Assembly (NCBI GenBank): GCA_016929435.1
Contig: JAFGIV010000011.1
Location: 1-34,536, forward strand
DNA length: 34,536 bases
From: Candidatus Uhrbacteria bacterium
GTDB taxonomy: Bacteria; Patescibacteriota; Patescibacteriia; SG8-24
Direction: 5' to 3'
Position 1 is the stretch's first letter. Each line of letters opens with the position of its first letter. Positions 13,723 through 34,536 of the stretch are shown here, piece after piece. Below the pieces are notes generated by a model. That model was not told where the DNA came from, did no database searches, and saw nothing but the letters and a program-made list of their open reading frames with translations. Position numbers and translations under genes: made by a program.

Positions 13723-16700
13723 TTAAGGGGCCTTGACCCGAATCTCCCCCCCGAACCATATCCACGGCTCGATGTCCGCATTCGGGCCGGAATTCAGCCC
13801 GTCCCAATATTCGAACGGTCGCTTGACGTCGGCGCTGATGGAACATTCGGATTCCCCGCCCGCCGGACCGGATTCCGGCCCCGTAAGGTCGTTGTCCATG
13901 CAGTGGTCGCCGGCAGTGCCGCCCGGACAGAAACCGGAACAGCTCCGCCAATTGTCCATGACCTGGACACGCGGTCGGTAAACGCAGGTATCCCCGTCAG
14001 AACACGGATAGACCCCCTCCCCGCAGTCTCGGAAATCGTTCAGTAGGGCATCGTTGCAGGTGTAGGTCCGGACCTCCTCGAAATAACGGCTGTCACAGGC
14101 ATTGTACTGGAGTCCCCAATCGTACGGGTCACCGTATTCGGCCGATGGCCCGCAGAGCGGGGCCGGCAGGCCGTCGCCGTCAATATCGGCCATGCCGCGG
14201 TGGTTCTTGAACCAGCCCCAAGTGACGGTGGCGGCACTGACGTCGTTGCCTGTCGTCGGGGAATCGTAGGCCCCACCGTAGAAATCGATGATCTTGCGCC
14301 GAATCGGCATGCGGTCGCTGTCGGCCCAGGCGTAGAACTGGATACTGGCCTTGAACCTTCCCGCCTGGTCGCTCTCTATCGTGTCGATTTGGCCGTTGAC
14401 GGAAATCCTCCCGTCACCCAGACTGCCCCCGCCCTCGACGCACGCGTCCCCCTGGCAGTTACCGGTATCGACGGACGCGACCTTCGGCGGATGCGTTCCG
14501 CCGTTCGTTGTCGGGCTTGTCCGGATGTCATCCTGGCTTCCGGAAGAGACATAGGCCCTCTTCCGGTCCACCCGCTGCCACTCATAGGTGTTGAAGACGC
14601 GGGCGAAAAGCCTCATGAGGTTGCTTATGCCCATGTCCCGACCGGCCACCTGCGGCAGGTCGGCGTTCCAGTCGAGGTTGAAGGGTACGCAGGTCTCATC
14701 GGCGCAGGTCAGTTCCAGCTTGGTGAAATTGGTCCCGCCTTCCGTGCCGAAGATCGGTACCGGGTAGTCGGGAGGAAAATTCCTCAAAAGCAGGGAGTCC
14801 GGGGACTCGACAATGCCGGCCGGATTGGTCCTCCCCAGCGGGGAAATGTCCTTTTTGTCGAGGTCGGGACGCCCGGTCTCCCCGAAATACCCCCAACCCG
14901 GATCATAGGCGGACTCCCCTGCCCCGACGCTCAGGCGATAGAGCCGATCCGTAAACGGGGCGGAAACGAAATCCTTGCTGCCGCTGCGCTTGCCGTCATG
15001 GACATTGGCGATTTCCGTGCAGTTCTTCCTGGTGAAAATCACGATGTCGTTAACGGTAACCGAATAGCTCCCTTTCTGCTGGTTGCCGCACAGGACGATG
15101 TCTATGCTGTACAGCCTGTCGTTCTCGTCAAACAGGGCCTGGGCACCCACGAAATTCTCGTTGTCGTTGTAGTCGTCGCAATATGCCTTGAGCGGTGCCT
15201 TGCCGTCACTGGGGTAATGCCTAAGGAAAAGATCGGTACAGTGCGCCCCGCTGCACCCGCCCACCAGGGTATCGATGCCGGACATCACCTTTCCCATGAC
15301 GCCCGAGTCTTCCGGCAGGGAGGTGTCCGGCAACCCATAGGTTCTTACCTCAACCATGTCCCGGTCATCGTCTTTGACTTTCCAGTCCCAATAGTTCATG
15401 AAACGGCCCCGGCTGTCCGGATACAGGTACATGTAGTTCTGGACAGGATTGTTGGTGTTGAGATTTTTGAACTCGATCCGGATGCCGGCCACCATGTCCC
15501 GGTAAACGGCGGATGACGGGAATTTCATGACGGAATAATTGGCAATATGCTGGTCACTGACGTTGTCGTGGCTGTCCAGGAGAAACTTCACGTAGTTGAC
15601 GGGTGTCCCTTCCGTATTGCTGTCCATGGGGGCGATGTCGTATTCCGCACTCTGGTAACCGCCCTCGTTCCACTCCCCGTCGCCGCGGGTATCCTCGTCC
15701 CTTCCCCAATTGTCGTTATCGTAGACCCAAACCCGCCAATCGCTGCTAAGCAGGGAAATACGCCCGTTCCCCCCCGACCCATTGCTTTCCGTGCAGTAGT
15801 TCAGCTGGGTAACCCCTTCCGGCGGGTTGAAACCGGCCTCCCGGAACTGGTTCCACTGGCTGGGCATGCCGGCCAGCTGATCCACCGGCAACCACAGATT
15901 ACACCCGTACAGCCCGCGATCGTTGTTGACCGTCAGGGCAGAATCATAGTCTATGCAGAACCCCGGCCAGCCGTAGGACCGAACCACCTCCGTCGGCATT
16001 GCGCACTTCCCTCCCTCTTCCTCGCAGTCCTTTCGGGACACGAAATTCGAGCCCAAATCGGTCTCGGCGCAGCCAAGGCCGTCCCACCTCCCGCCGGAAC
16101 AGTAGCCGACCAGTTCGGAACCGTAATAGGGGGAATATGGGGGCTTGGAATCTCCGATCACGTAAGAGAAATACCGGTCACTGCCGCCGCCTTCCCCATA
16201 CCTGACCTTAGTATAGAAGCAGTCGCAGTCGTTGTTCTGGGTGCAGACGTTGGTTTCCCTGAAGGCGGACACCTTTTTTACTGCCTGGCCGTTCCGGTAG
16301 GCATCGTTACCGCCGTCCAACACCGTCGCCCCGAACGGGGAATCCTTCTCCGGATAGGCCCGGCAGGAGGCGGACGAGAGCCGGTTTCCGATCTCCAGCG
16401 GTCCGCCCTCATAGCTCAGGTAGCAGTGGTTCCTGATGCAGCTTCCCCTTTCCGTCCCCCCGATCTCAACCGGGCAGTCACTGTCCGAATTGCAGGGCAC
16501 GGCCTGGCAGGATATCCCCTCGGGGCAGGACGACGGGTCGGACGAACAGTCGCTGTCGTTGACGGGGATGCAGGACAGGCCCTCCGGACATTCCTCGCTC
16601 GTTTCGCAGGTTTCGTTGGCGCGATCCCCGCCGCAGTAACCGGTGGATGACGCACCCCTCACCCCGCCGCAGTATTTGGGGTCATGGACAATGCCGTAAC

Positions 16701-19700
16701 GCATGGTGCCCATGTCCGAACAGGTGCAGAACTGGCCGACGGGACAGGTGACCGCCGCCCTTTCGGCAGCGGACAGGCCGCCGGTATCGCATTCGCAGGG
16801 CCGCGGTTCCACGTTGGCGTTCGGGGCGACGCAGACGCCGCTCAGGGCAGGGCCGCAGTAAAGGGTGGACGTGTTTCCGCAATCCGCGCTGTTGAAGCAG
16901 TAGCGGGCGGTATCGGCCCCGGGCGGGTCAAAGACGCCGTGGTCGGTCAGGAGCCGGCACAGGCCCCGGTTGATGTCCACCGGATATATGTACTGCGACG
17001 GGAACTTTCCGAAAATGCTGTATCCGGAATAGTCCATCCCGTTCCACCCTATGTCCCGTCCGGTGTAGGTCTGGAGATCGAGCTTCCGCTTCTCCGGCTC
17101 ATCCCAAAGGGTGCACTCAAAGGCGGTTCCCGAGGACTGGTTGTCGATGCAGGTCCCGAAATCCGTACAGACCCGGCGCCACTTGTTGGACTGGTCGTCC
17201 CAACTGACCTCGTACTGGGAACATTCCAGCCAACGGCCGCACTCCCTGTCCGGACGGACCTTAATGACGGTGTTGGAATCGTTGCGGGTGAAATTCCTGT
17301 TCAGGCTGTCGGTCCGGCTGTCGGCCGGCGGCACGGCATTGGCGGCCGGATTCTCCAGCCCGCCGGTCCCCCACTCCCGGGCATCGGCCACGCACCTCTC
17401 CCCGCTGTCCGAATCGCAATCGCCGTCATCCCGGCATCCGATGCCGTATGCCTCCTGGCCCTGGCACTTTCCGCTGCAGTCGCTGTCCTGAAAACATGCC
17501 TTCTGCGGATCGTCCTCGCAGGTACCGCCAACGTAGCGGAAACACCGCCGTTCGCAATAGTCGCTCCTCCCGGGAGAGCCGCAGCTCACCGCCGAAACGG
17601 TCGCGGCTCCGCCTCCCCCCTCGACCTGGCTTCGGGCATAGGAGGCCGATGACGAGAAAAGCCTCCGCTTGTCGCTGGTCTGGTCGAACAGCACGCATCC
17701 CTCCTTCAGGTTGACGGTGCCGGAACACGAGCTGGTGTCCAGCTTTGAATTCATCAGGTAATAGTAGGGCTGGCCTTCCGGGTTCAGGGCAGACGTTGAT
17801 GACGGGTCCACGAATTCCTCGCAGCGGTCATAACGGGATTCGCATATCCCGGCCCAACCGGCATATCCGCAGGAGGTATTGCCGCGGACGACCGTGCAGG
17901 CCAGGGTCGACCCGTCGTCCAGGTAACACGGACAGCCGGCATCCGATTCGCAGCGCCTGTCCAACGAGCAGCTGACATCGGCGTTGCGGTAGACGGAAAA
18001 GACGCTGCCGTCCCTGACCAGCTCGGGGTAGCACGGCAATACCGCGCCGCTCTCGCTCTTCCTGAACCACCCGGAATAGGTCTTCCCCTGGTAGGTGGCC
18101 GATTCCCTGTATTCGCAGACCCGATCGCCGGGATCCTTGAGGTAATATGTCCGTTCGTCGGTGGCATAGGCCCGACAGCCGACATCCGACTCCCTGCATG
18201 AGATTTCCCCGTACCGTTCCGGATCGACCTGGAAGGCCACGGTCTTCCAGGCGGTAACCATCGGGAATTCGGAGGCGAAAACGCACTCCCTCTGTCCCTG
18301 ATCTATGAGGCATCCGTTGGACGAACCCTGGGCCGCGCCGTCGCACCAACAGCCGGCGGCGCTTGGGCAGGCGGAATCGTGACGGCAAACCCCCTCATTG
18401 GACTCCACCGGCTTGCCGTAGGCCTGACACCCGGCGGCGGATGCGGAACAGGAGCTGCCGGCATCGGCAACCAGGTAAAGGCGGCGGTCCGCCGGCACCT
18501 CGATTATGTCCGGATACTCGCTTCGGTTCCTGAAGGTATCGGAACCGTCCAGCGTAAAGCGGCAGGTGGATTCGCCGATGGGGACGCGGCAGGCGTCCGC
18601 CAGATAATGGGGAACGCCGGACGGGGCGGCCGGGTGCTTCAGGTCATAGTCACAGCGACAGGCCGTTCCGCCGGCCGCCATGCTGGCCGTGCATTTCGTC
18701 CCCAGGTCACAGACCGCCTGGTAGGTCTTGGGCCAGATTTCGGAATTCTGGTTGGTCTGGGAGTAGGCTCCGCAACCCACCGACCCCTCGCGACACAGCG
18801 AGGAGAACGAGCGGAGATAGGCCTCCTGGCCCAGGTCATCGGAGTATTCCCTGCATCCCAACATCTCCTGGGGGGAATAGGCTCCGGAAACGGAACGGTC
18901 GCACGAGGCCGGGGTCTTCCAGGAACCGCGGACGACCGTAAGGCTGTCCCGGACCTCACGGAACACGACGTTGTCAATGAAGGCCTGGCTGCCGCTGCCG
19001 GTGAAGAACGACAGGCTGACCAAACCGGTTCCCCAACGGTAGTCGAACGAGGCGGAAGACGGGCTGACCGGACCGAGGACATATTCCTGCCAATCCCCGG
19101 TCAGTGACACCCCATCAGAAAATAAGATCCCGTCGCCGCCTGCCGTCCCCTGGGAACAGGTCGGGTTCACGCTGCCCGAATCCCTGATGCAGTAGTGTCC
19201 GCCCTCGGTCAGGCAACGGCAGTTCCTGCCGCCGTCGTCGCAGGAGGCGGCATCTATGGAGCACGGCGAAGACGGATAGGCATCCTCCCGGACAAGGCCG
19301 ACGGATACCTTCCCCTGCCCCTTGGCCCAGAAGCTGACCGAGTACAGGCGGTCATGGAAAAGGCGGTCCGTAAAGGCGAAGGATGTCCCGCCGCCGGATC
19401 CGGAAATCCTGACCGAATGCCCGCCGGCCGTAACCGATTCCGACGACACCGATCCCGCAGGAACGTCCACCGAAATCCAGGTCTGCCCCAGACCGCTCTC
19501 GTAATCCTCGAAAAGGACCTGGCGGGTATTGGCGGCGGTGTTCCCCTTGTAGGCACGGCAACCGTTGGCCTCGACCGGACATGACCGGCTCTCCTCCGGC
19601 AGGGCAAAATAGGTACAGGAACCCTTTGCCGCATCCCAGACGCCGTTGGTGTCGGTGCAGTCCCTGGCCTGCTTCTCCAGGGTGGCGGTGGCGGTCATCG

Positions 19701-22700
19701 GCGGCCTGGTCAGGCGCAGGCGGCGGCATCCGTCGCTCACGGAAATGGTCCTGGACTGCAGGCGGTAGAACTTGACGCCGTCGGTATCCGTAAACTCCCG
19801 ACAGTCAAGGTTGGTCAGGAGATCGCCGGAACCGCAGGAGAACGCGGTCGAAATCTGGCACTGTTCCGGGTTTCCGAGGTTGAGCTTGGTGCACGGCGCC
19901 CCGTCGGACTGGACCATCAGGCGCCAGGTCTTCAGCTGGTATCCGGCGGTATCCGAACCTTCCCACGTATAGAAGGTTTTTTCCTCAACACCGGGTTTCT
20001 GGCACATCCTCAGGCGGGAATACTGGCTGACCGCCTCGGTTTCCTCGTCCGTAAACTCGGAACACCCGACATCGGTCGCACTGCAGGAACGGGCGGTTTC
20101 CGGGATGAAATAGACCGGAAACTCGTCCGAACCCTCGAATTCCGAGCTTTCCTGCTTATACGTCTCGTATCCCACGCACTCGGCCGGACAGCGGTCCGCA
20201 TCGGTCACCACCCCGGGGACGGTCGGGTCGCCGTTCATCGGCGTGTAGGCCCGACAACCGACCTCGTTTTCCCTGCAGACCCGGGCAAAGGACCCGCAGG
20301 CTTCGGGATCAGTGGATTCCCCCCGGCAACCGAGCCATTCCGGGGGGGCCTTCAGGTAATCCCTTCGGCTGGCCGAACCGTAGCCCTCATGAAAGGCGGT
20401 CAGCGGACCCTCCTCCAACTGCACGTCGTCGACGTAATTCTCGATTGTACCATCGGCCGCATATAAGGAAAGGTCGGCCGTACTGATCGGGTATCCGCCG
20501 CTTCGGGAAACGGAAAAGCTGCAGGCAACACGAATCTCTCCCTTGTCGTAGTCAACATCGGCCACCACGGAATTGCCGTCACGGCTGCAGGTGTATCCCT
20601 CCCCGTCCGTAGCCTTGTTGACCGCCAACGTTCCCGAACCCAGGCTGACCGCCCTACCCAACGCGTCACGGAAAGTCACTTTCATCCCCGCCTTCACCCT
20701 GGGAACACTGCCGCGAACGCCAACGTTGTGGTGTCGAGGGAAGAAAGAGGCCGAAACCGTATAGGTCTGCCCCTCACGGACGGGAATGCCGGCCTGCATG
20801 AACTTTTGGGTCCAGGCACAGGACATTTTCCCGAAAGGAACCAGGCACATCCGTCCGGTTGAGTCATCGGTGCACGGGCAGCCCCTGTCGCCGTAACAGG
20901 TCTCCGTCAGGCTGCAGGTACCGGAACCCACCTCCGACAAAACCAACGCCCGCCCGTCAGTGACCTCTCCCGAATAGGAGGAGAAACCGACCTTGCCGCC
21001 GAAAGGCGTCCAGTGGGCCGCATGGTCCGAAACCCCGTCACCGTCACCGTCAACCGTTTCGGTGAAACCCGGATTCTTCACCAGGTTAAGGGATTGCCCG
21101 TAATCTAGCCGGATCAGTTCCGAACATCCGGCGTCGTTCGTGCTGCAGCTCTTGGCCTGGCCGGTCAGGAAGACCGGACTGCTGGACAGCCAATCGTCGG
21201 CCGGATTCACGGAATCGCCGACTGCCGTTGTGCAGAAATTCGACCCCTTTTCCACCCGACACTGGCGAATGACAGTGCACTGGCACCCGTCACCGCTCGC
21301 GCACTCGCTGAACCTCCGGGAGGTGTTCTCGAAATAGTCGCAGAATTCGCCGGCCACCGTCATGCAATACCGCTCCCCCAGCGCCAGGCTACAGCGGTCG
21401 GAATTGTTGACGCAAAGGCACCCCTCGTCACTGTTGCAGGTTTGGTTCAGGGTGCATGTGGCAACGTTCTGCCGGGTGCTGTATTCGGCGCATCCGGCGT
21501 TGCCGGAATCGCAGGAACCGTGGTCAACGGTATTCATCAGGAGGGATATCGGGTTTCCGCCGGCCAACGGCCGGAGCTGCCTGCAGGAATTGAACTGTTC
21601 CGGGCAGGGATCGGCATCGAACCGCCAGACGTTCCTCTCCTGGGTGCAATACCCCCAACCGCCGATACAGGCCCCGAAATCGTCCTCCCGTAGGCAGGAC
21701 ACCGGATCGACACAGGTCTGGTAGCGGTTCGGTCCGTCCGGGGATTCCAGGTGGGCGGAATAGGCCAGGGCGCGGCATTGGGTGGTGGGCATCTTCAGGA
21801 CCCAATCCGGGTCGATCAGGTGACACCACGGGTGTCCGGAATCGGCCTCCCCCCGGTCGTTGCAGTCGCTGAAACGGTTTATCGCCTCGTTTAGGGTAAC
21901 GGCCCGGTTCCCGATCGGGCTCCGGCTGGCCGCCACTTCCCAGCCTATCGGCAATATCCGGGCGGCCCTCAATTTCTTCAGGTTGCCTTCGCAGTATCCG
22001 ACGGTATGGCACCAGTCTTGGGTATTGCGGGAAGTGTCTCCGGCGCTGATGAGGGGCCAGTCCCCGTGAAGGAACCCCTTGTCCACGGCTTCCCTGACCG
22101 TCAGCCCCGACGAACCGCCGGATGCCAAACGGACGGCTGCGGCAAACTGGGAATCCATGACGCAATGCAGGGGACCGCGGCTGACCCCCGGGCAGGCGAC
22201 GAAATCGTTTATCGGGTCAAAACTCCCGGATTCCCTGATCGGGGGCATGGTATAGCGGGACCGGATCGCCTTGCCGACCTGGGAGGAGCTGGGGTTTATC
22301 ACCCCCTCCAGCGACAGGACGACCTCAGGCTGGGACTGGATGGCGTCCTTGGGGGAAAGGAGACCGCGCACCAGGTTGTTCCAGGAAACGGCCAGGAGCG
22401 TCGAACCGAAAGTCTGGACCGTGTTGCTCACGATGTTGGCCACCGTCCCCTTGGCGATGGAACCGGCGGTGACGGCTTTCTGCTGTTCCTTGGCCTCCTC
22501 GCCGCTGGCGTTCGCCCGCATCCTGTCAAACTCGCCCTTGATGTAGGAGGCCGGGGCGGTCACCCGCTTGCTGACCGGATCGGACAGTGCGGAGAACCCC
22601 CCGCCGGCGGCGGCGTTCTCCAGGCGCTCGGAGAACGATTCCGTTTCGGCCTTCCTGATACGGATGGATATCTCCCTGTTCACCTCATAGGCCACGGCCA

Positions 22701-23319
22701 GCGGGGAATTCCCCGGCTCGAACTGGACCCAATTGTGTCCCTTCAGTTCCGACCAGGACATTGAGTTGGCAGCCTCCTTCCAGTTCCGGACGATGTCGTT
22801 GAATTCGCATTTCGGCTTCGGCGGTTCCACGATGCTCAAGAGCCCCATCTGTATCTTAAGGGTCATTGTCGCGGACGGGTCGCAGAGGTCAAAACCCAGG
22901 TCCTTAAGCCCGCTGGCCTCGGACATGGTGCCGACCGCCTCACCGATCGCCCCCTTGCCGGCATTGGCCACCATCTGCCCGAAACTCATGGTTTCCCAAC
23001 ACGGTTTCTGTCCCGGGCAGTCGGTGGAAAGGGACATGGCCAGCTGGTAGGCCAATTGGGTGGTGAAATAGTTGACCCCGTTCGCCAGGGCCATCACCAC
23101 TCCCTCGATCAGGTTGTCCTTAATGGTGCTAAGAATGGCCTTGGATGTCTCCCCGGCGATCAGGGTAGAATCGGCCACAGGCAGGTTGGCCTGGGCCGGT
23201 TTCGGCAAAAGCGTCACCCCAGCGGCTGACGACAGGAATATCGCCAAGACCATCAGTCCGGAAACTGCGGACCGTTGCCAACCGAAACGATTTCGTTTTC
23301 CGTTCCCGGCGTCATTCAT
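13723..23319 (-). CDS. Giant exported cysteine-rich multidomain protein (3198 residues)
   Basis: A single uninterrupted frame of 9.6 kb. Residues 1-45 form a signal peptide with an N-region rich in K and R and a PAQA cleavage-like site. About 50-450 are mostly helical with scattered cysteines. From about 600 to 1800 a cysteine array is built from two recurring motifs: C-x5-G-C (eight copies, near 602, 724, 1015, 1079, 1247, 1508, 1624, 1707) and GC-x-C followed by C-x4-G-x3-C (about seven copies). Two jelly-roll, carbohydrate-binding-like modules lie near 745-975 (NLVKNPGF start) and 1263-1453 (FIDNVVFREV end), each with a cysteine loop inserted. Further cysteine clusters lie near 1980-2350. 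The last 700 residues are mostly strand-forming. No C-terminal anchor or sortase motif is seen. The gene follows its upstream neighbour by 6 nt and precedes the VirB6-like gene, so a surface structure tied to that machine is likely. Confidence 0.85.
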   Translation of the reverse strand: MNDAGNGKRNRFGWQRSAVSGLMVLAIFLSSAAGVTLLPKPAQANLPVADSTLIAGETSKAILSTIKDNLIEGVVMALANGVNYFTTQLAYQLAMSLSTDCPGQKPCWETMSFGQMVANAGKGAIGEAVGTMSEASGLKDLGFDLCDPSATMTLKIQMGLLSIVEPPKPKCEFNDIVRNWKEAANSMSWSELKGHNWVQFEPGNSPLAVAYEVNREISIRIRKAETESFSERLENAAAGGGFSALSDPVSKRVTAPASYIKGEFDRMRANASGEEAKEQQKAVTAGSIAKGTVANIVSNTVQTFGSTLLAVSWNNLVRGLLSPKDAIQSQPEVVLSLEGVINPSSSQVGKAIRSRYTMPPIRESGSFDPINDFVACPGVSRGPLHCVMDSQFAAAVRLASGGSSGLTVREAVDKGFLHGDWPLISAGDTSRNTQDWCHTVGYCEGNLKKLRAARILPIGWEVAASRSPIGNRAVTLNEAINRFSDCNDRGEADSGHPWCHLIDPDWVLKMPTTQCRALAYSAHLESPDGPNRYQTCVDPVSCLREDDFGACIGGWGYCTQERNVWRFDADPCPEQFNSCRQLRPLAGGNPISLLMNTVDHGSCDSGNAGCAEYSTRQNVATCTLNQTCNSDEGCLCVNNSDRCSLALGERYCMTVAGEFCDYFENTSRRFSECASGDGCQCTVIRQCRVEKGSNFCTTAVGDSVNPADDWLSSSPVFLTGQAKSCSTNDAGCSELIRLDYGQSLNLVKNPGFTETVDGDGDGVSDHAAHWTPFGGKVGFSSYSGEVTDGRALVLSEVGSGTCSLTETCYGDRGCPCTDDSTGRMCLVPFGKMSCAWTQKFMQAGIPVREGQTYTVSASFFPRHHNVGVRGSVPRVKAGMKVTFRDALGRAVSLGSGTLAVNKATDGEGYTCSRDGNSVVADVDYDKGEIRVACSFSVSRSGGYPISTADLSLYAADGTIENYVDDVQLEEGPLTAFHEGYGSASRRDYLKAPPEWLGCRGESTDPEACGSFARVCRENEVGCRAYTPMNGDPTVPGVVTDADRCPAECVGYETYKQESSEFEGSDEFPVYFIPETARSCSATDVGCSEFTDEETEAVSQYSRLRMCQKPGVEEKTFYTWEGSDTAGYQLKTWRLMVQSDGAPCTKLNLGNPEQCQISTAFSCGSGDLLTNLDCREFTDTDGVKFYRLQSRTISVSDGCRRLRLTRPPMTATATLEKQARDCTDTNGVWDAAKGSCTYFALPEESRSCPVEANGCRAYKGNTAANTRQVLFEDYESGLGQTWISVDVPAGSVSSESVTAGGHSVRISGSGGGTSFAFTDRLFHDRLYSVSFWAKGQGKVSVGLVREDAYPSSPCSIDAASCDDGGRNCRCLTEGGHYCIRDSGSVNPTCSQGTAGGDGILFSDGVSLTGDWQEYVLGPVSPSSASFDYRWGTGLVSLSFFTGSGSQAFIDNVVFREVRDSLTVVRGSWKTPASCDRSVSGAYSPQEMLGCREYSDDLGQEAYLRSFSSLCREGSVGCGAYSQTNQNSEIWPKTYQAVCDLGTKCTASMAAGGTACRCDYDLKHPAAPSGVPHYLADACRVPIGESTCRFTLDGSDTFRNRSEYPDIIEVPADRRLYLVADAGSSCSASAAGCQAYGKPVESNEGVCRHDSACPSAAGCWCDGAAQGSSNGCLIDQGQRECVFASEFPMVTAWKTVAFQVDPERYGEISCRESDVGCRAYATDERTYYLKDPGDRVCEYRESATYQGKTYSGWFRKSESGAVLPCYPELVRDGSVFSVYRNADVSCSLDRRCESDAGCPCYLDDGSTLACTVVRGNTSCGYAGWAGICESRYDRCEEFVDPSSTSALNPEGQPYYYLMNSKLDTSSCSGTVNLKEGCVLFDQTSDKRRLFSSSASYARSQVEGGGGAATVSAVSCGSPGRSDYCERRCFRYVGGTCEDDPQKACFQDSDCSGKCQGQEAYGIGCRDDGDCDSDSGERCVADAREWGTGGLENPAANAVPPADSRTDSLNRNFTRNDSNTVIKVRPDRECGRWLECSQYEVSWDDQSNKWRRVCTDFGTCIDNQSSGTAFECTLWDEPEKRKLDLQTYTGRDIGWNGMDYSGYSIFGKFPSQYIYPVDINRGLCRLLTDHGVFDPPGADTARYCFNSADCGNTSTLYCGPALSGVCVAPNANVEPRPCECDTGGLSAAERAAVTCPVGQFCTCSDMGTMRYGIVHDPKYCGGVRGASSTGYCGGDRANETCETSEECPEGLSCIPVNDSDCSSDPSSCPEGISCQAVPCNSDSDCPVEIGGTERGSCIRNHCYLSYEGGPLEIGNRLSSASCRAYPEKDSPFGATVLDGGNDAYRNGQAVKKVSAFRETNVCTQNNDCDCFYTKVRYGEGGGSDRYFSYVIGDSKPPYSPYYGSELVGYCSGGRWDGLGCAETDLGSNFVSRKDCEEEGGKCAMPTEVVRSYGWPGFCIDYDSALTVNNDRGLYGCNLWLPVDQLAGMPSQWNQFREAGFNPPEGVTQLNYCTESNGSGGNGRISLLSSDWRVWVYDNDNWGRDEDTRGDGEWNEGGYQSAEYDIAPMDSNTEGTPVNYVKFLLDSHDNVSDQHIANYSVMKFPSSAVYRDMVAGIRIEFKNLNTNNPVQNYMYLYPDSRGRFMNYWDWKVKDDDRDMVEVRTYGLPDTSLPEDSGVMGKVMSGIDTLVGGCSGAHCTDLFLRHYPSDGKAPLKAYCDDYNDNENFVGAQALFDENDRLYSIDIVLCGNQQKGSYSVTVNDIVIFTRKNCTEIANVHDGKRSGSKDFVSAPFTDRLYRLSVGAGESAYDPGWGYFGETGRPDLDKKDISPLGRTNPAGIVESPDSLLLRNFPPDYPVPIFGTEGGTNFTKLELTCADETCVPFNLDWNADLPQVAGRDMGISNLMRLFARVFNTYEWQRVDRKRAYVSSGSQDDIRTSPTTNGGTHPPKVASVDTGNCQGDACVEGGGSLGDGRISVNGQIDTIESDQAGRFKASIQFYAWADSDRMPIRRKIIDFYGGAYDSPTTGNDVSAATVTWGWFKNHRGMADIDGDGLPAPLCGPSAEYGDPYDWGLQYNACDSRYFEEVRTYTCNDALLNDFRDCGEGVYPCSDGDTCVYRPRVQVMDNWRSCSGFCPGGTAGDHCMDNDLTGPESGPAGGESECSISADVKRPFEYWDGLNSGPNADIEPWIWFGGEIRVKAP

Positions 23320-28014: not shown

Positions 28015-29160
28015 CTACTCCCCTTTCTTCAGTAACCTCAGGTACGCCTCAACGAACGGGTCTAAATCGCCGTCCAGGACCCGATCCGTCTCCTGGTCCC
28101 TGACCTCAAACTTTGTCCGGTGGTCCTTCACCATGTGATACGGGTGAAGGACGTATGACCGGATCTGGTTTCCCCACTCCGCACTCTTGAACTCCCCCCT
28201 AAGCTTCAGGCGTTCCGCCTCCCGTTCCCTCATCTTCATGGCCTGGAGCCGGGCGGACAGGATGCGCATGGCGGTTTCCTTGTTCTGGGTCTGGGACCGC
28301 TCGTTCTGGCAGGTAACGACCGTGTTGGTGGGGAGATGCGTAAGGCGCACGGCGGAATAGGTGGTCTGCACGCCCTGTCCGCCGTGACCTCCGGAAAGGT
28401 AGGTGTCGATGCGCAGGTCCTCCGGGTTGATCTCCACTTCCGCCACTTCCCCCAGGTCCGGCAGAACCTCCACCAGGGCAAAGGACGTCTGACGCAAATT
28501 ATCCGCATTGAACGGGGACTGACGCACCAGCCGGTGCACCCCAGCCTCGCATTTCAGGTGACCGAAGGAGAAACGGCCGCCCACGCCGAAAGTGACGCTC
28601 TTGATGCCGGCCTCGTCCCCCCGGCTCTCGTCCAGAATTTTTACCGTCCATCCCTTGATTTCGGCATAGCGGAAATACATCCGCTTGAGCATCTCCGCCC
28701 AGTCCATGGCCTCCGTTCCCCCGGCCCCGGCATGGATGGCCACGATGGCATCGCCGGAATCGTATTCCTCGCCCAAAAGGGTCGTAAACTCCAGTCTCTC
28801 GAATTTACCGGTCAATTCGGAAAGCTGCCTGACGATATCATCCTCTATCCCCTGATTTTCCTCCTGATCCCGGGCCTCTTTCCTGTCCTCCATCACCTCG
28901 TCGGACGCCATCCTGGCGAAATCCAGCAGGTCCTCGGTCTCCTTCCCTATCCCTGCCCAGGAATCGTAAAAATCCCGCAATCCGGCCAGTTTGCGGCTGG
29001 TCACCTGGGCCCTGTCCGAATTGCCCCAAAAATCCGGCTGCTGGGTTTCCCATTCCAGGGCATCGATCTCCGCCTTCAGCCTTTCCATGTCCAGAAGATC
29101 CCAGGCTGCCCTGATTCGGGCCATCAGGCCCTCGATTTCCGCGATTACCGGCTTGATCAT
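28015..29160 (-). CDS. prfB: Peptide chain release factor 2
   Basis: A 381-residue class I release factor that recognises UGA and UAA stops and triggers hydrolysis of peptidyl-tRNA. The stop-recognition tripeptide SPF is present (VRQSPFNADN), which marks RF2. The catalytic loop is GGHGGQGVQTTYSAVRLTH, keeping GGQ, although the residue after it is Gly rather than the common His. Length is slightly above the usual 365. The frame is continuous, with no in-frame UGA and no CTTTGAC shift site near codon 25, so the common autoregulatory frameshift of prfB is absent. A TGGTAAGAT extended -10 ends 9 nt before the ATG. Confidence 0.96.
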   Translation of the reverse strand: MIKPVIAEIEGLMARIRAAWDLLDMERLKAEIDALEWETQQPDFWGNSDRAQVTSRKLAGLRDFYDSWAGIGKETEDLLDFARMASDEVMEDRKEARDQEENQGIEDDIVRQLSELTGKFERLEFTTLLGEEYDSGDAIVAIHAGAGGTEAMDWAEMLKRMYFRYAEIKGWTVKILDESRGDEAGIKSVTFGVGGRFSFGHLKCEAGVHRLVRQSPFNADNLRQTSFALVEVLPDLGEVAEVEINPEDLRIDTYLSGGHGGQGVQTTYSAVRLTHLPTNTVVTCQNERSQTQNKETAMRILSARLQAMKMREREAERLKLRGEFKSAEWGNQIRSYVLHPYHMVKDHRTKFEVRDQETDRVLDGDLDPFVEAYLRLLKKGE

Positions 29161-29236: not shown

Positions 29237-29258
29237 AAAAAAGCGGCCGTCTCCCGCT
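29237..29258 (-). terminator. Terminator overlapping the stop of the DUF4870-like gene
   Basis: Minus-strand stem AGCGG / CCGCT with a 7-base loop, followed by six Ts (29237-29242). The stem begins within the TAG stop codon, so termination is immediate. Confidence 0.75.
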
Positions 29259-29694
29259 ATACCCTAAGCATCTGCGCGTATTTCCCCAACAGCGGAATCT
29301 CCCACCGCTCCCCGCGCCAGGCCATGACGATGCCCACAACGGATATCGCCAGTACCAAAATATAAATTATTGACCCAAAATTCGGAATCCAGGTCACCAG
29401 GCTCAATATCGACTGGACGGCGAAGACCACGATCCCCTGCCGGCAGTGGAACAGGGCGAATTCGCTCCGGTTCCTGGCCAAAAGCGGCACCAGGAACAGC
29501 AGGCCCACATAGCTCAAGGATGCCAATAGGCGGTTGTCCCGGACATCCGGATCCATCGGCTTCCTCTCCGGTTTTTCGACTTTTTCAATGGCGGGCTCGG
29601 CAACTTCGGCGTTTTCGCTTTTTTTCGGTTCCCCTATCGGCTTTTCCTCGGTTTTCGTCTCTTGAGACATAGGTTTGGAATTCTGGTCAGTCAT
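29257..29694 (-). CDS. DUF4870/Tic20-like small membrane protein
   Basis: A 145-residue protein. Residues 1-50 are charged and low in complexity (K, E, P). The rest has three membrane helices at about 57-73, 87-103 and 108-128. The motif ARNRSEFALFHCRQGIVVF between helices 1 and 2 is the hallmark pattern of DUF4870-like proteins (a basic stretch, F-x-x-FH-x-xQ). Their function is unknown; some resemble the Tic20 fold. It has its own extended -10 promoter and a terminator that overlaps its stop, so it is a single-gene unit. Confidence 0.82.
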   Translation of the reverse strand: MTDQNSKPMSQETKTEEKPIGEPKKSENAEVAEPAIEKVEKPERKPMDPDVRDNRLLASLSYVGLLFLVPLLARNRSEFALFHCRQGIVVFAVQSILSLVTWIPNFGSIIYILVLAISVVGIVMAWRGERWEIPLLGKYAQMLRV

Positions 29695-29774: not shown

Positions 29775-29865
29775 CAAAACCTATACATCCGTTTTCAGAC
29801 ACAAAAGCCGGGGATGTCCCCGGCTTAAGAATCTCCATTGCCACAAATGCCATTGCTCCAAAAAT
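29775..29865. repeat. 91-bp direct repeat, copy 1
   Basis: Starts CAAAACCTATACATCCG and ends CTCCAAAAAT. It matches 31146-31236 at 89 of 91 positions by eye (T/C in CTATAC and G/A in CATTGCTCC). It contains a 10-bp hairpin. It lies just downstream of the metalloprotease cassette. Confidence 0.9.
29803..29826 (-). terminator. Terminator hairpin inside repeat copy 1
   Basis: Stem AAGCCGGGGA / TCCCCGGCTT, followed on the minus strand by TTTTGTGTC. It would terminate the matrixin cassette transcript about 75 nt past the last stop. Confidence 0.65.
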
Positions 29866-29898
29866 ATGTCTTGGCGACGCTTAATTTAATCAGGTCGT

Positions 29899-30492
29899 CT
29901 ATTTGACTGCGGAATCGATCTGCGACTCAAGTTCCGATAGCGTCACGTCATCCTTGCCGAAGACGCTCGAAACGAAAGGCCTTTCCCGTTCCGTTCCGAG
30001 AGTGTCATTTTCGTTAACGATAAACTTCCCTTGGGCTTCACCCGCCACCCAATAATCGTCCCCCTTACCGAACCGATAAATGAAAACAACGACCTTACTT
30101 CCCAATTCAAAATCCGGTGATCCCTCTGCCACCATGGTATGGTCACCGACCGTACCGCCAAGAGCCTTAACCTTAACGACTTGCGCATCCAAACCGCCAT
30201 AATTAGACAGATACCTGTCGACTCTTACCGTGGCGGTTGTGACGACATCATGCTCACCCGCTCGAAAAATGGATCTCTCCCGATTTACTGCGATATCGTC
30301 AACCACTCCGACAATTACGGCATCGCTATTAAGGGATAATTCCCCAACATCCCTGGGGATCATGATGGAACTAACAATCACCGACGTATCCGAATGGGCA
30401 CTGTCGAGGAAGAACGTCCCGTAAACCATCCCCACCGACACGGACAGAGCCACCGCTCCGCCAGTCAGGACGCATTTTTCAGTCAGATTCAT
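29899..30492 (-). CDS. Exported protein of unknown function paired with the metalloprotease
   Basis: A 197-residue protein with an N-terminal signal or anchor segment (LTGGAVALSVSVGMVYGTFF). The mature part is strand-rich: NSDAVIVGVVDDI near residue 55, VVTTATVRVDRYL near 85, then a GGTVGDHTMVAEGSPDF turn and GSKVVVFIYRFG. This arrangement is familiar from small secreted proteins of unknown role found in several phyla, but I cannot name a family with confidence. It starts 6 nt after the metalloprotease gene. Sampled lines of the pair have about 50% GC, below the cluster to the left. A partner, substrate or inhibitor of the protease is possible but unproven. Confidence 0.7.
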   Translation of the reverse strand: MNLTEKCVLTGGAVALSVSVGMVYGTFFLDSAHSDTSVIVSSIMIPRDVGELSLNSDAVIVGVVDDIAVNRERSIFRAGEHDVVTTATVRVDRYLSNYGGLDAQVVKVKALGGTVGDHTMVAEGSPDFELGSKVVVFIYRFGKGDDYWVAGEAQGKFIVNENDTLGTERERPFVSSVFGKDDVTLSELESQIDSAVK

Positions 30493-30498
30493 GGATAT

Positions 30499-31050
30499 TT
30501 ATGGGTATACGTAATTTATTCCGTTGATATCATCCGTCTCCAGCGATCGCTTTTTGGTTTCGCCCGGCAATATGCTGTAATACATGGTTTTTTCCGTGTC
30601 GGAACCGCCGAAAAGATCCCCTAATACCAGCCAATGTCCCAATTCATGGGCAACGACACTCTGCACGTCAATCTTGTTCGGCTCTCCAGAAGTTGACCAC
30701 TGGTAATAGGTATTCAAAACCGTATCGGTATCCAACAACGTGCTGCCCGATCGGTTTATGTATGTTTTTCCAGGCGGTTGCAAATAACCCAAATCCTGAA
30801 CATACATGGAATGGCCGGATGATCCCGTATTGAAATAGAACGGTGAGGATGCGGCGTTCCATGTCCCCATGGCCGAAGCCAATGGAGAAATCCAAGCGCT
30901 GGGCCAGGAGGCTTCCACCTGAATGGCGATCGGGTAGCCTGACCATTTATATCCTAGGTAACTATACGCTTTTGCAAACCCAACCGATACCGTGAACAGC
31001 GTCAAACATACCGTCAAGCAAACAGCTGACCTCCTACCAAATTTTGGCAT
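30499..31050 (-). CDS. Secreted matrixin-like zinc metalloprotease
   Basis: A 183-residue protein with a signal peptide (residues 1-29, ending GFAKA) and a metzincin catalytic domain. The zinc motif is VVAHELGHWLVLGD near residues 132-145: HExxH with an aspartate as the likely third ligand, as in snapalysin (HExxHxxGxxD), not the His of classical matrixins. A downstream Met (EKTMYYS) fits the Met-turn. The C-terminal LETDDINGINYVYP is the usual matrixin last helix. There is no pro-domain or cysteine switch, so it may be made active or be controlled by its neighbour. It is first of a two-gene cassette flanked by 91-bp direct repeats. Confidence 0.87.
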   Translation of the reverse strand: MPKFGRRSAVCLTVCLTLFTVSVGFAKAYSYLGYKWSGYPIAIQVEASWPSAWISPLASAMGTWNAASSPFYFNTGSSGHSMYVQDLGYLQPPGKTYINRSGSTLLDTDTVLNTYYQWSTSGEPNKIDVQSVVAHELGHWLVLGDLFGGSDTEKTMYYSILPGETKKRSLETDDINGINYVYP

Positions 31051-31075
31051 ATTTATAAATCTAACGAGTGAAATA

Positions 31076-31081
31076 ATTATA
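31076..31081 (-). promoter_or_regulatory. -10 box of the metalloprotease cassette
   Basis: A perfect TATAAT on the minus strand, 25 nt before the ATG. No clear -35. A 12-bp palindrome starts 2 bp upstream of it (31083-31094). Confidence 0.55.
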
Positions 31082-31082
31082 G

Positions 31083-31094
31083 TGTGAATTCACA
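31083..31094. promoter_or_regulatory. 12-bp palindrome, possible operator
   Basis: TGTGAATTCACA is a perfect inverted repeat immediately upstream of the -10 box of the metalloprotease cassette, where a regulator could block or assist polymerase. No regulator gene is nearby. Confidence 0.4.
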
Positions 31095-31145
31095 AAAATA
31101 TGATATCACCGAATTGTTTTTTTTTTGCAAATAGGATCCTTCGTA

Positions 31146-31236
31146 CAAAACCTACACATCCGTTTTCAGACACAAAAGCCGGGGATGTCCCCGGCTTAAG
31201 AATCTCCATTGCCACAAATGCCATTACTCCAAAAAT
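31146..31236. repeat. 91-bp direct repeat, copy 2
   Basis: Same sequence as 29775-29865 apart from two positions, offset by 1371 bp. Its hairpin (31174-31197) should also terminate minus-strand transcripts arriving from the right. It lies upstream of the cassette promoter, so the two copies bracket the cassette. Confidence 0.9.
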
Positions 31237-31286
31237 TTGATTCCTTTCGGACGGTCAGACCAAGAATCCGGGTTCCGATAAAAACC

Positions 31287-31323
31287 GAACAAAACCCGCC
31301 CGGCGGATTGCCGAGCGGGTTTT
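31287..31323 (-). terminator. 37-bp terminator repeat, copy left of ABC-F
   Basis: Inverted repeat AAAACCCGCCCGGC / GCCGAGCGGGTTTT with loop GGATT. It can act on either strand. It matches 33075-33111 at 36 of 37 positions. It lies about 97 nt past the ABC-F stop. Confidence 0.8.
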
Positions 31324-31341
31324 ATCACGAACCCCTTCCCC

Positions 31342-31410
31342 TTAAGTCCCCAGCGCCCCCCTAAACATCCCCCAGCGCCCCCCTAAATCCCCCAATACTG
31401 GGGGACTTAT
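31342..31410. repeat. G/C-rich tandem and inverted repeat after ABC-F
   Basis: Two tandem copies of CCCCAGCGCCCCCCTAAA (the second beginning near 31370) lie between inverted ends TAAGTCCCC and GGGGACTTA. An inner hairpin CCCCC-AATACT-GGGGG lies at 31389-31404. It resembles a REP- or MITE-like element. It has no T tract on the minus strand. Confidence 0.55.
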
Positions 31411-31419
31411 AATGATTGG

Positions 31420-32949
31420 TCATTTCCTGCCCAAACAGACGGTCCTGACAACGTTTATGTCCGAAAGGAACTTCCGGTCATGGGAGACTACAACCAAAGC
31501 CCCCTCGAAACTGTTCAGGATACCGGCTACCCGTTCCACGGTCTCAATGTCCAGGCTGTTGGTCGGTTCGTCCATTATAAGGAGCTGCGGGGGCGACTCT
31601 CCGGCCAGAACATAGGCTAAGGCTGCCCGAATACGCTCTCCGCCGCTTAGGTCTTTGGGGGTCCTCAGGGCGCTTTCGTTCGCGAAGCCGAACCGGGCCA
31701 ACCAATTTCTTGCTTCGGTTTGGCTGCCTCTTATCCTTTCCGCCACCGAATCGGCCAATACCCTGTTCGCCGGCAGGACGGACAGGTGCTGATCCAAATA
31801 AGCCCACCGCCGCACGCCAAAATATACCTCTCCGGATTCCGGTTCCAGCTGTCCTGTCATCAGCCTGATCATGGTGGTCTTGCCGCTCCCGTTAGGACCG
31901 GATATCGCCAACCGCTCCGGCCCGCATATCTCGAAGTTCACCTTTTCCAGCAGGGGCTGGCCGTCGCCGTAACGAAAGGTGACATCCCGAATTTCGGCTA
32001 CTGTCTTGCCTTTCGGCACCATAGTCCCCGACAGGTCAACGACCATCCGATCGTCATTCCTAGCCTTGGCATACGCTGAAGCCTGACGATCCTGGGCATC
32101 CCTGATCTTCATGTCGAAATTTCCCCTGATTTTTCCGGCGGTGCCTTCGGCCCTATCGGCAAAGTAATTCAGTTCCGCTTTCCCCATTCCGATCTTGCCT
32201 CTGGCCTTCTGTCCGCGAACCATCCTTTTTTCCTGTGCCTCCCTCTTCTGCCTGGCGATCTTTTTCAGCCGGTCCAGTTCCCTGTCGGCATCGCCCAAGT
32301 GCCGTTTGGCCGCTTGGGTGTCCCTATCTTTCTGTTGGCGATAAAAGTCGTGGTTTCCACCGTACTTCCGGGCCTTTCCACCCGACAGTTCGATTATCTC
32401 ATCGACACGGGAAAGCAGTTCCCTATCGTGACTTATGACCAGCAACCCCCCTTTCCATCCTTCAATCAAGCCGTAAACGAACTGACGCGATTCCGAATCC
32501 AGATTGTTGGTCGGTTCGTCCAACATCAGGTAGTCGGGCTTACGGAGCATCGCTGCAGCCAACAAGACCCGCATCCTCTCCCCTCCGCTCAATGACCCCA
32601 TGGTTCGACCCAATTCCATCTCTTTCAGCCCAACCGCATCAAGTAACCTCATGACCGGCCCGTCGATGTCTGAAATTTCGATCTCCAACGTCTCAGCCAA
32701 GGTCTTATGATTGTCGATTCGGTAGTCTTGCGGCAGGTAAGCGATCCGCAACCCGTCGAGGCCGATTACCTGTCCGAATGACGGCTTGACCTCACCGGCA
32801 ACGATCCTCATCAGGGTCGTTTTTCCCGATCCGTTCCTGCCGACCAGCCCCGTTTTGCAGCGAGACAGGTTCAGATCAATGTCCTTTATGATTTCCGTTC
32901 CGTCTTCAGAAAGATAGGCGATTGATTTTAGCGTAATGTTCCCATTCAT
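31420..32949 (-). CDS. ABC-F family ATPase (ribosome-associated)
   Basis: A 509-residue protein with two ATP-binding cassettes and no membrane helix. Domain 1: Walker A GRNGSGKTT near residue 37, signature LSGGE near 120, Walker B YLMLDEPTNNLD. Domain 2: Walker A GPNGSGKTT near 344, signature LSGGE, Walker B LLIMDEPTNSLD. A basic linker of about 90 residues (about 205-295) contains a helical pair rich in K, R and Q, which in ABC-F proteins reaches the ribosomal P-site tRNA. The family includes translation factors such as EttA and ribosome-protection antibiotic resistance proteins; which kind this is cannot be told by eye. It is a single-gene unit bracketed by near-identical terminators. Confidence 0.92.
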   Translation of the reverse strand: MNGNITLKSIAYLSEDGTEIIKDIDLNLSRCKTGLVGRNGSGKTTLMRIVAGEVKPSFGQVIGLDGLRIAYLPQDYRIDNHKTLAETLEIEISDIDGPVMRLLDAVGLKEMELGRTMGSLSGGERMRVLLAAAMLRKPDYLMLDEPTNNLDSESRQFVYGLIEGWKGGLLVISHDRELLSRVDEIIELSGGKARKYGGNHDFYRQQKDRDTQAAKRHLGDADRELDRLKKIARQKREAQEKRMVRGQKARGKIGMGKAELNYFADRAEGTAGKIRGNFDMKIRDAQDRQASAYAKARNDDRMVVDLSGTMVPKGKTVAEIRDVTFRYGDGQPLLEKVNFEICGPERLAISGPNGSGKTTMIRLMTGQLEPESGEVYFGVRRWAYLDQHLSVLPANRVLADSVAERIRGSQTEARNWLARFGFANESALRTPKDLSGGERIRAALAYVLAGESPPQLLIMDEPTNSLDIETVERVAGILNSFEGALVVVSHDRKFLSDINVVRTVCLGRK

Positions 32950-33074
32950 AAACGAATAACCAAGACGCTTTTGGCGCCTGATGAATTACGGGATGAGACG
33001 GTTACGCTATTTTCGCATCGGTACTCGGATAACATTAAGATCATGAATATACGCCGAAAAGACCGGTCCGTCAA

Positions 33075-33111
33075 GAACAAAACCCGCCCGGCGGATTGCC
33101 GGGCGGGTTTT
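33075..33111 (-). terminator. 37-bp terminator repeat, copy right of ABC-F (after groEL)
   Basis: A perfect 14-bp stem, AAAACCCGCCCGGC / GCCGGGCGGGTTTT, loop GGATT. The minus strand continues TTTTGTTCTT. It lies about 75 nt past the groEL stop and matches the copy at 31287-31323. Confidence 0.85.
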
Positions 33112-33184
33112 GTAATGAATTCTTCCGCCTAAGCCCCTGAAGGCGCAGGTCTCCCGCAGGGAGGGGTTTGGGGGTGAGGCCGGG
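33112..33184. other. 3' spacer of groEL with palindromes
   Basis: Contains CTCCCGCAGGGAG (33152-33164) beside a G-rich run, similar in style to the G/C palindromes near 26730, 27765 and 31390. No gene seen. Confidence 0.4.
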
Positions 33185-34536
33185 CTAGTACATCCCGCCC
33201 ATGCCCATGCCGCCGCCCATCCCGCCGTGGCCGGCGTGCTTGTCGTCCTTCTCTTCCGGAATGTCGGTAATCACGCACTCCGTCGTCAGGAGGAGGGAGG
33301 CGATGGATGCGGCGTTCTGCAGGGACGAACGGACCACCTTGGTCGGATCGACAATGCCGGCCTTCACCATGTCCTCCTCATACTTGCCGGTGCGGGCATT
33401 GAATCCGAAGTTCTCCTTGCCGGACTGCAGGCCCTTCAGGACCTCGCTCGCCACGACCGCCTTGTCCACGCCGACATTCTCGGAGATCTGCCGGATCGGC
33501 TCCTGCAGGGCCTGGACCATTATCCTCACGCCGACCTGCTCGTCGGCATCCTCGGACTGGACGTCGGACATCAGCCTCTGGGCGGCCCGGAACAGGGCCA
33601 CGCCGCCGCCCGTTACGATCCCCTCCTCGACCGCCGCCTTGGTGGCCTGGACGGCATCCTCGATCCGGGCCTTGATCTCCTTCATCTCGGTTTCGGTGGC
33701 TGCCCCGACCTTGATCACGCCAATGCCGCCGGAGAGCTTGGCCAGCCGCTCCTGCAGCTTCTCCCGGTCAAAATCGGAATCGGTCGCCTCAATGGCGTTC
33801 TTGATCTCGGCGACCCGGTCATCAATGGCCTTCGGGTCACCGGCCCCATCGACGATGGTGGTGTTCTCCTTGGTGGAGACCACCTTCCTGGCCCGCCCCA
33901 AATCCTCCAATTGGGTCTCCTCCAGCTTCAGGCCGACCTCCTCGCTGATCAGCTTGGCGCCGGTCAGGACGGCGATGTCCCGGAGCATTTCCCTGCGCCG
34001 GTCGCCGAACCCCGGAGCCTTGACGGCCAGGGCGTTGAAGGTGCCGCGCAGCTTGTTGACGATCAGGGTAGTCAGGGCCTCCCCGTCGATGTCCTCACAG
34101 ATGATGACGATCTCCTTCTTCCCGGTCTGGGCGATCTTTTCCAGAAGCGGCAGGATCTGCTGGATGGAGGATATCTTCCTGTCCGTCACCAGGATGTTCG
34201 GGTCGGCGTATTCGGCCTCCATCCGCTCCGGGTTGGTCACCATATAGGGGGCGACATAGCCCTTGTCGAAGCGCATGCCGTCCACGACCTCCTTCTCAAT
34301 CCCGAACGTCTGGCCCTCCTCGACGGTGATGACCCCGTTCTCCCCGACCGCCTTCATCGCCTCGGCGATGATCCGGCCGATCTCGGCGTCATTGGCGGAA
34401 ATTGAGGCGACCTGCTCGATTCCCTCCCCGCTCACCGGCTTGGAAATCGACTTCAGTATCTCCACGGCGGCCACCACGGCCCGGTCAATCCCCTTCTTCA
34501 CCCTCATGGCGTTGGCGCCGGCGGCCACGTTCTTCA
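33185..34536 (-). CDS. groEL: Chaperonin GroEL, 3' part (5' end outside window)
   Basis: About 450 C-terminal residues of the 60-kDa chaperonin, which folds proteins inside a double-ring cage with GroES. The frame is open to the window edge, reading [10 protein letters not shown], so the start lies beyond 34536. Visible family features are the apical domain stretch [20 protein letters not shown], the KAPGFGDRR motif, the IVTGGGVAL equatorial segment, and the GGM-rich flexible tail ending GMGMGGMY. Length to the C-terminus is normal. A strong terminator follows. No groES is seen in the window. Confidence 0.98.

Follow-up and report, generated by a model that had tools for sequence, protein, structure and literature searches.

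Morons of temperate phages are small, independently expressed gene sets inserted among conserved genes, frequently at a preferred position (PMC2629481). Integron gene cassettes are small units between hairpin-forming repeats, with n units accompanied by n+1 sites, and integrons are recognised by an IntI-type integrase together with attC sites. Integrative elements are defined by a recombinase gene within the element, and genomic islands at the 3' ends of tRNA genes have a duplicated target around the gained segment. Among Patescibacteria many single-gene transfers have been reported, and these bacteria are described as competent and as often keeping the genes for homologous recombination (PMC12455944); a search of the same text for terminator and integrase found no mention of either.

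Here, we investigated a two-gene unit in a window of 34,536 nucleotides (the whole stretch of DNA analysed) from the genome of a tiny, uncultured Candidatus Uhrbacteria bacterium, which is assigned to Patescibacteria by its size, its relatives, and its type IV secretion cluster. On the minus strand, which is the coding strand of the region, a promoter region of 95 bp (31051..31145) with a 24-nt imperfect palindrome (31068-31109) precedes a gene for a matrixin-like metzincin of 183 aa (M, 30499..31050), followed by a gene for a partner protein of 197 aa (P, 29899..30492). The preliminary description had reported 91-bp direct repeats with two differences at 29775-29865 and 31146-31236, each with a terminator hairpin, that enclose only these two genes and their promoter. 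All of this holds: the 91-bp copies have two mismatches, nothing else lies between them, and both carry an identical 9-bp GC-rich stem (AAGCCGGGGACATCCCCGGCTT then TTGTG, minus strand). The full repeat measures 94 bp, with a downstream copy at 29775..29868 (minus strand, hairpin 29805-29826) and an upstream copy at 31146..31239 (minus strand, hairpin 31176-31197) that are 1371 bp apart, 97% identical with three mismatches, and sharply delimited on both sides, where homology stops exactly. The hairpins fold with z-scores of -3.9 and -2.9, the T-run that follows is weak, and an RNA family search of the repeats gave no known family above threshold. The match between the two copies has an E value of about 1e-40 and is thus not due to chance. 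Across the genome (1.1 Mb) these are the only full copies of the 91-mer, and the next best matches to the repeat are 23 nt at 87%, which rules out a common genome-wide terminator repeat, the finding that the preliminary description had said would undo its reading. A viral origin of the copies was also considered and rejected, as the exact hairpin and close relatives of M are absent from viral contigs. The enclosed stretch has a GC content of 47.5% versus 57.8% for the genome and 58.8% at positions 1-28000, in line with the earlier remark that it is poorer in GC than the type IV secretion cluster of the window; this cluster includes an open reading frame of 3198 aa (13723-23319). The M-P unit shares with morons the features named above and, unlike them, lies on a bacterial chromosome and is flanked on both sides by direct repeats of one terminator.

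M passes the curated cut-off of Pfam PF00413 (36.6 bits versus 24, E 5e-9) and has a signal peptide recognised by eye. The Foldseek matches of its model are MMP-3 and karilysin, M10 matrixins that it resembles in the HExxH motif, the Met-turn (TMYY in M), and the fold. Unlike these proteases, M has Asp as the third zinc ligand and no recognisable propeptide within its 183 aa. Its zinc site, HELGHWLVLGD, keeps HExxH and departs from HExxHxxGxxH in having Val for Gly and Asp for the third His. The third ligand is Asp in the clade of M and His in others, and the M of genome G021 retains the full motif. Searches of P against Pfam, NCBIfam, and PDB sequences gave nothing usable. An AlphaFold2 model built from nine relatives (pLDDT 84) predicts an N-terminal helix followed by an OB-fold domain of the NTR/TIMP type, and its top PDB matches in Foldseek are agrin NtA and TIMP-2 (E 1.6e-4 to 3e-4; TM-scores of about 0.4 by query length and 0.4-0.6 by target), with TIMP-1 also found and other OB folds scoring lower. 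P is accordingly predicted to have an NTR/OB fold like that of agrin NtA and the TIMPs, and its gene partnership with a matrixin would be TIMP-like as well. Unlike TIMP/NTR proteins, it has no Pfam or PDB sequence match, no cysteine framework, and an N-terminal membrane helix, in which its single Cys lies; as the TIMP disulfides and the free N-terminal Cys are absent, we do not file P as a TIMP. Our search of the literature on bacterial TIMPs found nothing relevant. In the 9/9 intact loci that we found, M directly precedes P, and the degree of identity across loci is correlated between the two proteins (Spearman 0.70, Mantel p 0.005). We infer that P binds or inhibits the protease M, in which case it would be a membrane-anchored partner of this secreted enzyme and the unit would be a protease with its own safeguard. 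A second P-like domain in genome G577 (L173 1477-2709) is fused to a longer protein, follows an mltG-like gene, and has no matrixin beside it.

Relatives of P were found in 5/381 genomes of the class and in 5/380 genomes drawn from the phylum. The preliminary description had named presence of the cassette, with divergent flanks, in all relatives as evidence against its reading; relatives do not all carry M-P, and within the family it occurs in 2/10 genomes, of which the other carrier, G003 (the Patescibacteria MAG nzgw371), has it at a different locus beside a tRNA-Asp gene. M-P units are sporadic and lie at unrelated loci. The closest relatives compared with this genome are of family level, and in two of them (G004 and G005) groEL is followed directly by a small membrane protein gene and then by prfB. 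The same flanks are found in the window on the minus strand, namely groEL (Cpn60, 33185..34528), the small membrane protein gene (29257..29694), and prfB for peptide chain release factor (28015..29160), with two insertions between the first and the second: M-P and a gene for a two-domain, ABC-F-like ABC ATPase (31420..32949, minus strand). The latter gene has a terminator bracket of its own that the first reading had missed, as the terminator after groEL (about 33072..33137) recurs after the ABC-ATPase gene (about 31283..31350), both on the minus strand, and the two match at 84% identity over 31287-31350 and 33075-33137. Further relatives have different genes at this site, which makes it a place of turnover. 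A site with a single copy of the 91-mer was looked for in relatives, as had been proposed, and none was found, which weighs against the gain model given below. At 31343-31415 and 33114-33180, the window also contains a dispersed intergenic repeat in two parts, with the ABC-ATPase gene between its halves. Elsewhere in the genome this repeat is present at about 15 other positions (on contigs C4, C5, C10, C12, C13, C16, C20, C23, C26, and others), mostly with adjoining halves, and several contigs end near its copies.

Because M and P are paired in every intact locus and the pair sits at unrelated loci, is sporadic and low in GC, and is absent from the syntenic site in relatives, we consider it probable that it is a horizontally gained accessory unit, inserted together with a terminator copy between conserved genes so that a two-copy bracket resulted, and we favour acquisition over duplication. 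Comparable brackets occur at other M-P loci. On contig C2 of the same genome, two units form the array T1-[M-P A]-T2-[M-P B]-T3, in which the three terminators are homologous to one another and unrelated to the 94-mer. The array resembles integron cassettes in its small units between hairpin-forming repeats and its n+1 sites. Unlike in integrons, no integron integrase was found, and the repeats of M-P are locus-specific terminators; judged by an IntI-type integrase and attC sites, this is no integron cassette array. The second matrixin of the C2 array (G000:C2:39348-39812) reads HELGRALGLDH, with Arg in place of the second zinc His, and is possibly inactive judging from its sequence. In the distant genome G577, M-P lies between 44-nt copies (89%) of a third terminator. 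Its congener G541 has no M-P and one copy of that terminator, which is followed at 48 nt by the toxin-antitoxin pair that G577 also has (83% over 642 bp). The gene upstream of the G541 terminator is not homologous to its G577 counterpart, so the site has changed rather than simply being empty: the two genomes share the terminator and differ in the cargo upstream of it. Private repeats of 65-72 nt in G021 enclose M-P together with a nucleotidyltransferase/HEPN pair. In the genome studied here, brackets surround each of the three M-P units (Fisher p 3e-6, or 2e-4 counted by locus). The absence of a bracket in 4/9 M-P units (G003, G183, G603, G642) counts against gain with a terminator copy.

The strongest competitor, which we nonetheless regard as unlikely, is a trace of tandem duplication, in which a block of M-P plus terminator was doubled and the first M-P was then deleted, leaving an orphan terminator upstream. 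The upstream copy at 31146 fits this scenario and counts against the gain model, since it follows another terminator and lacks an associated gene directly upstream; the same genome also offers a real case of tandem paralogues on contig C4, 40% identical and with terminators identical over 35 nt. Against it, no remnant of P lies beside the upstream copy, and homology does not extend past the repeat edges. At the parallel C2 array, the M tree and the P tree both recover unit B and the G021 unit, the latter from another family, as fully supported sisters and place B far from its neighbour A; the two units come from different lineages, and the array was therefore not built by tandem duplication. 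This nearest-relative test was run on the C2 units and is not applicable to the single C15 unit, and the single locus of the window may be a duplication remnant. Thus, where the preliminary description had offered a portable unit or a duplication, portability stands in the sense of horizontal gain, self-mobility does not, and duplication is rejected at C2 only.

Bracketing is not confined to M-P. In this genome, 10/617 pairs of neighbouring intergenic regions hold private same-strand direct repeats that bracket one unit, where the between-contig rate predicts 0.16, an excess of about 60-fold over chance. These ten include one true tandem paralogue pair (C4), one short case (29 nt), and two that touch a dispersed repeat; after removal of the three M-P cases, the C4 paralogues, and the short case, p is still near 8e-7. 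The bracketed genes are mostly low in GC and mostly have no homologue in G010, an order-level relative with one bracket in 546 pairs, which indicates that the bracketing habit is not uniform. In the literature searched, no account of duplicated terminators around gained genes was found. On contig C8, a likely structured 111-bp repeat (86%; G000:C8:64438-64548 and 69778-69887) surrounds three genes next to a tRNA and matches no Rfam family.

On contig C10, a single NYN-like gene lies between 60-bp repeats (G000:C10:41676-41735 and 42769-42828) that consist of the 3' end of tRNA-Val and its terminator. Like genomic islands, this case has a duplicated target, and it resembles an attachment site, but lacks an integrase. 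Together with the position of the G003 unit beside tRNA-Asp, it lends some weight to the view that the repeats are attachment sites for an integrase acting in trans, as for islands at tRNA 3' ends, a view to which we give little credence. Unlike such islands, the units here are about 1 kb long, with one or two genes and no integrase. Just M and P lie between the repeats, so that no recombinase gene is found within the unit, and a search for recombinases of the tyrosine type found one in the 99.9% complete genome, not near M-P, which we take to be Xer-like. With no integrase beyond this one, self-mobility is unsupported. The sequence of the repeats moreover differs from unit to unit. Still less credible is a reading in which selection retains terminator pairs for insulation and gene conversion keeps the copies similar, so that they would be uninformative about how the genes arrived: the C4 case, with identical terminators around genes only 40% alike, would suit this, but brackets are concentrated on low-GC accessory genes while most genes have none, and the copies reach past the hairpin. 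An assembly artefact, conceivable for a 94-bp repeat in an assembly of many contigs, is highly improbable given the three mismatches, the asymmetric flanks, the contiguous contig, and independent parallels in other assemblies.

Under the favoured gain at terminators, accessory units would enter intergenic sites together with a terminator copy and would need no dedicated integrase. The incoming DNA probably arrives by transformation, the terminator would be copied during the gain, and the terminator copies may either result from RecA-type or homology-assisted recombination of this DNA or serve as its anchor. Recombination between the copies could in turn remove M-P and leave one terminator, and the two 94-bp copies are a plausible substrate for such precise excision.

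These observations suggest that transcription terminators are places where such small sets of genes come and go. More tentatively, Patescibacteria in general may acquire and swap units of one or two genes at terminators, with no dedicated recombinase involved and a terminator copy left behind as a scar; one recurrent cargo would be a secreted matrixin with a membrane-anchored TIMP-like safeguard, a possible bacterial counterpart of the MMP-TIMP system. Paired private terminators would then offer a readable scar of gain and a simple test by genome scan, and the M-P pair, on the strength of its models, a testable bacterial protease with a predicted TIMP-fold partner.
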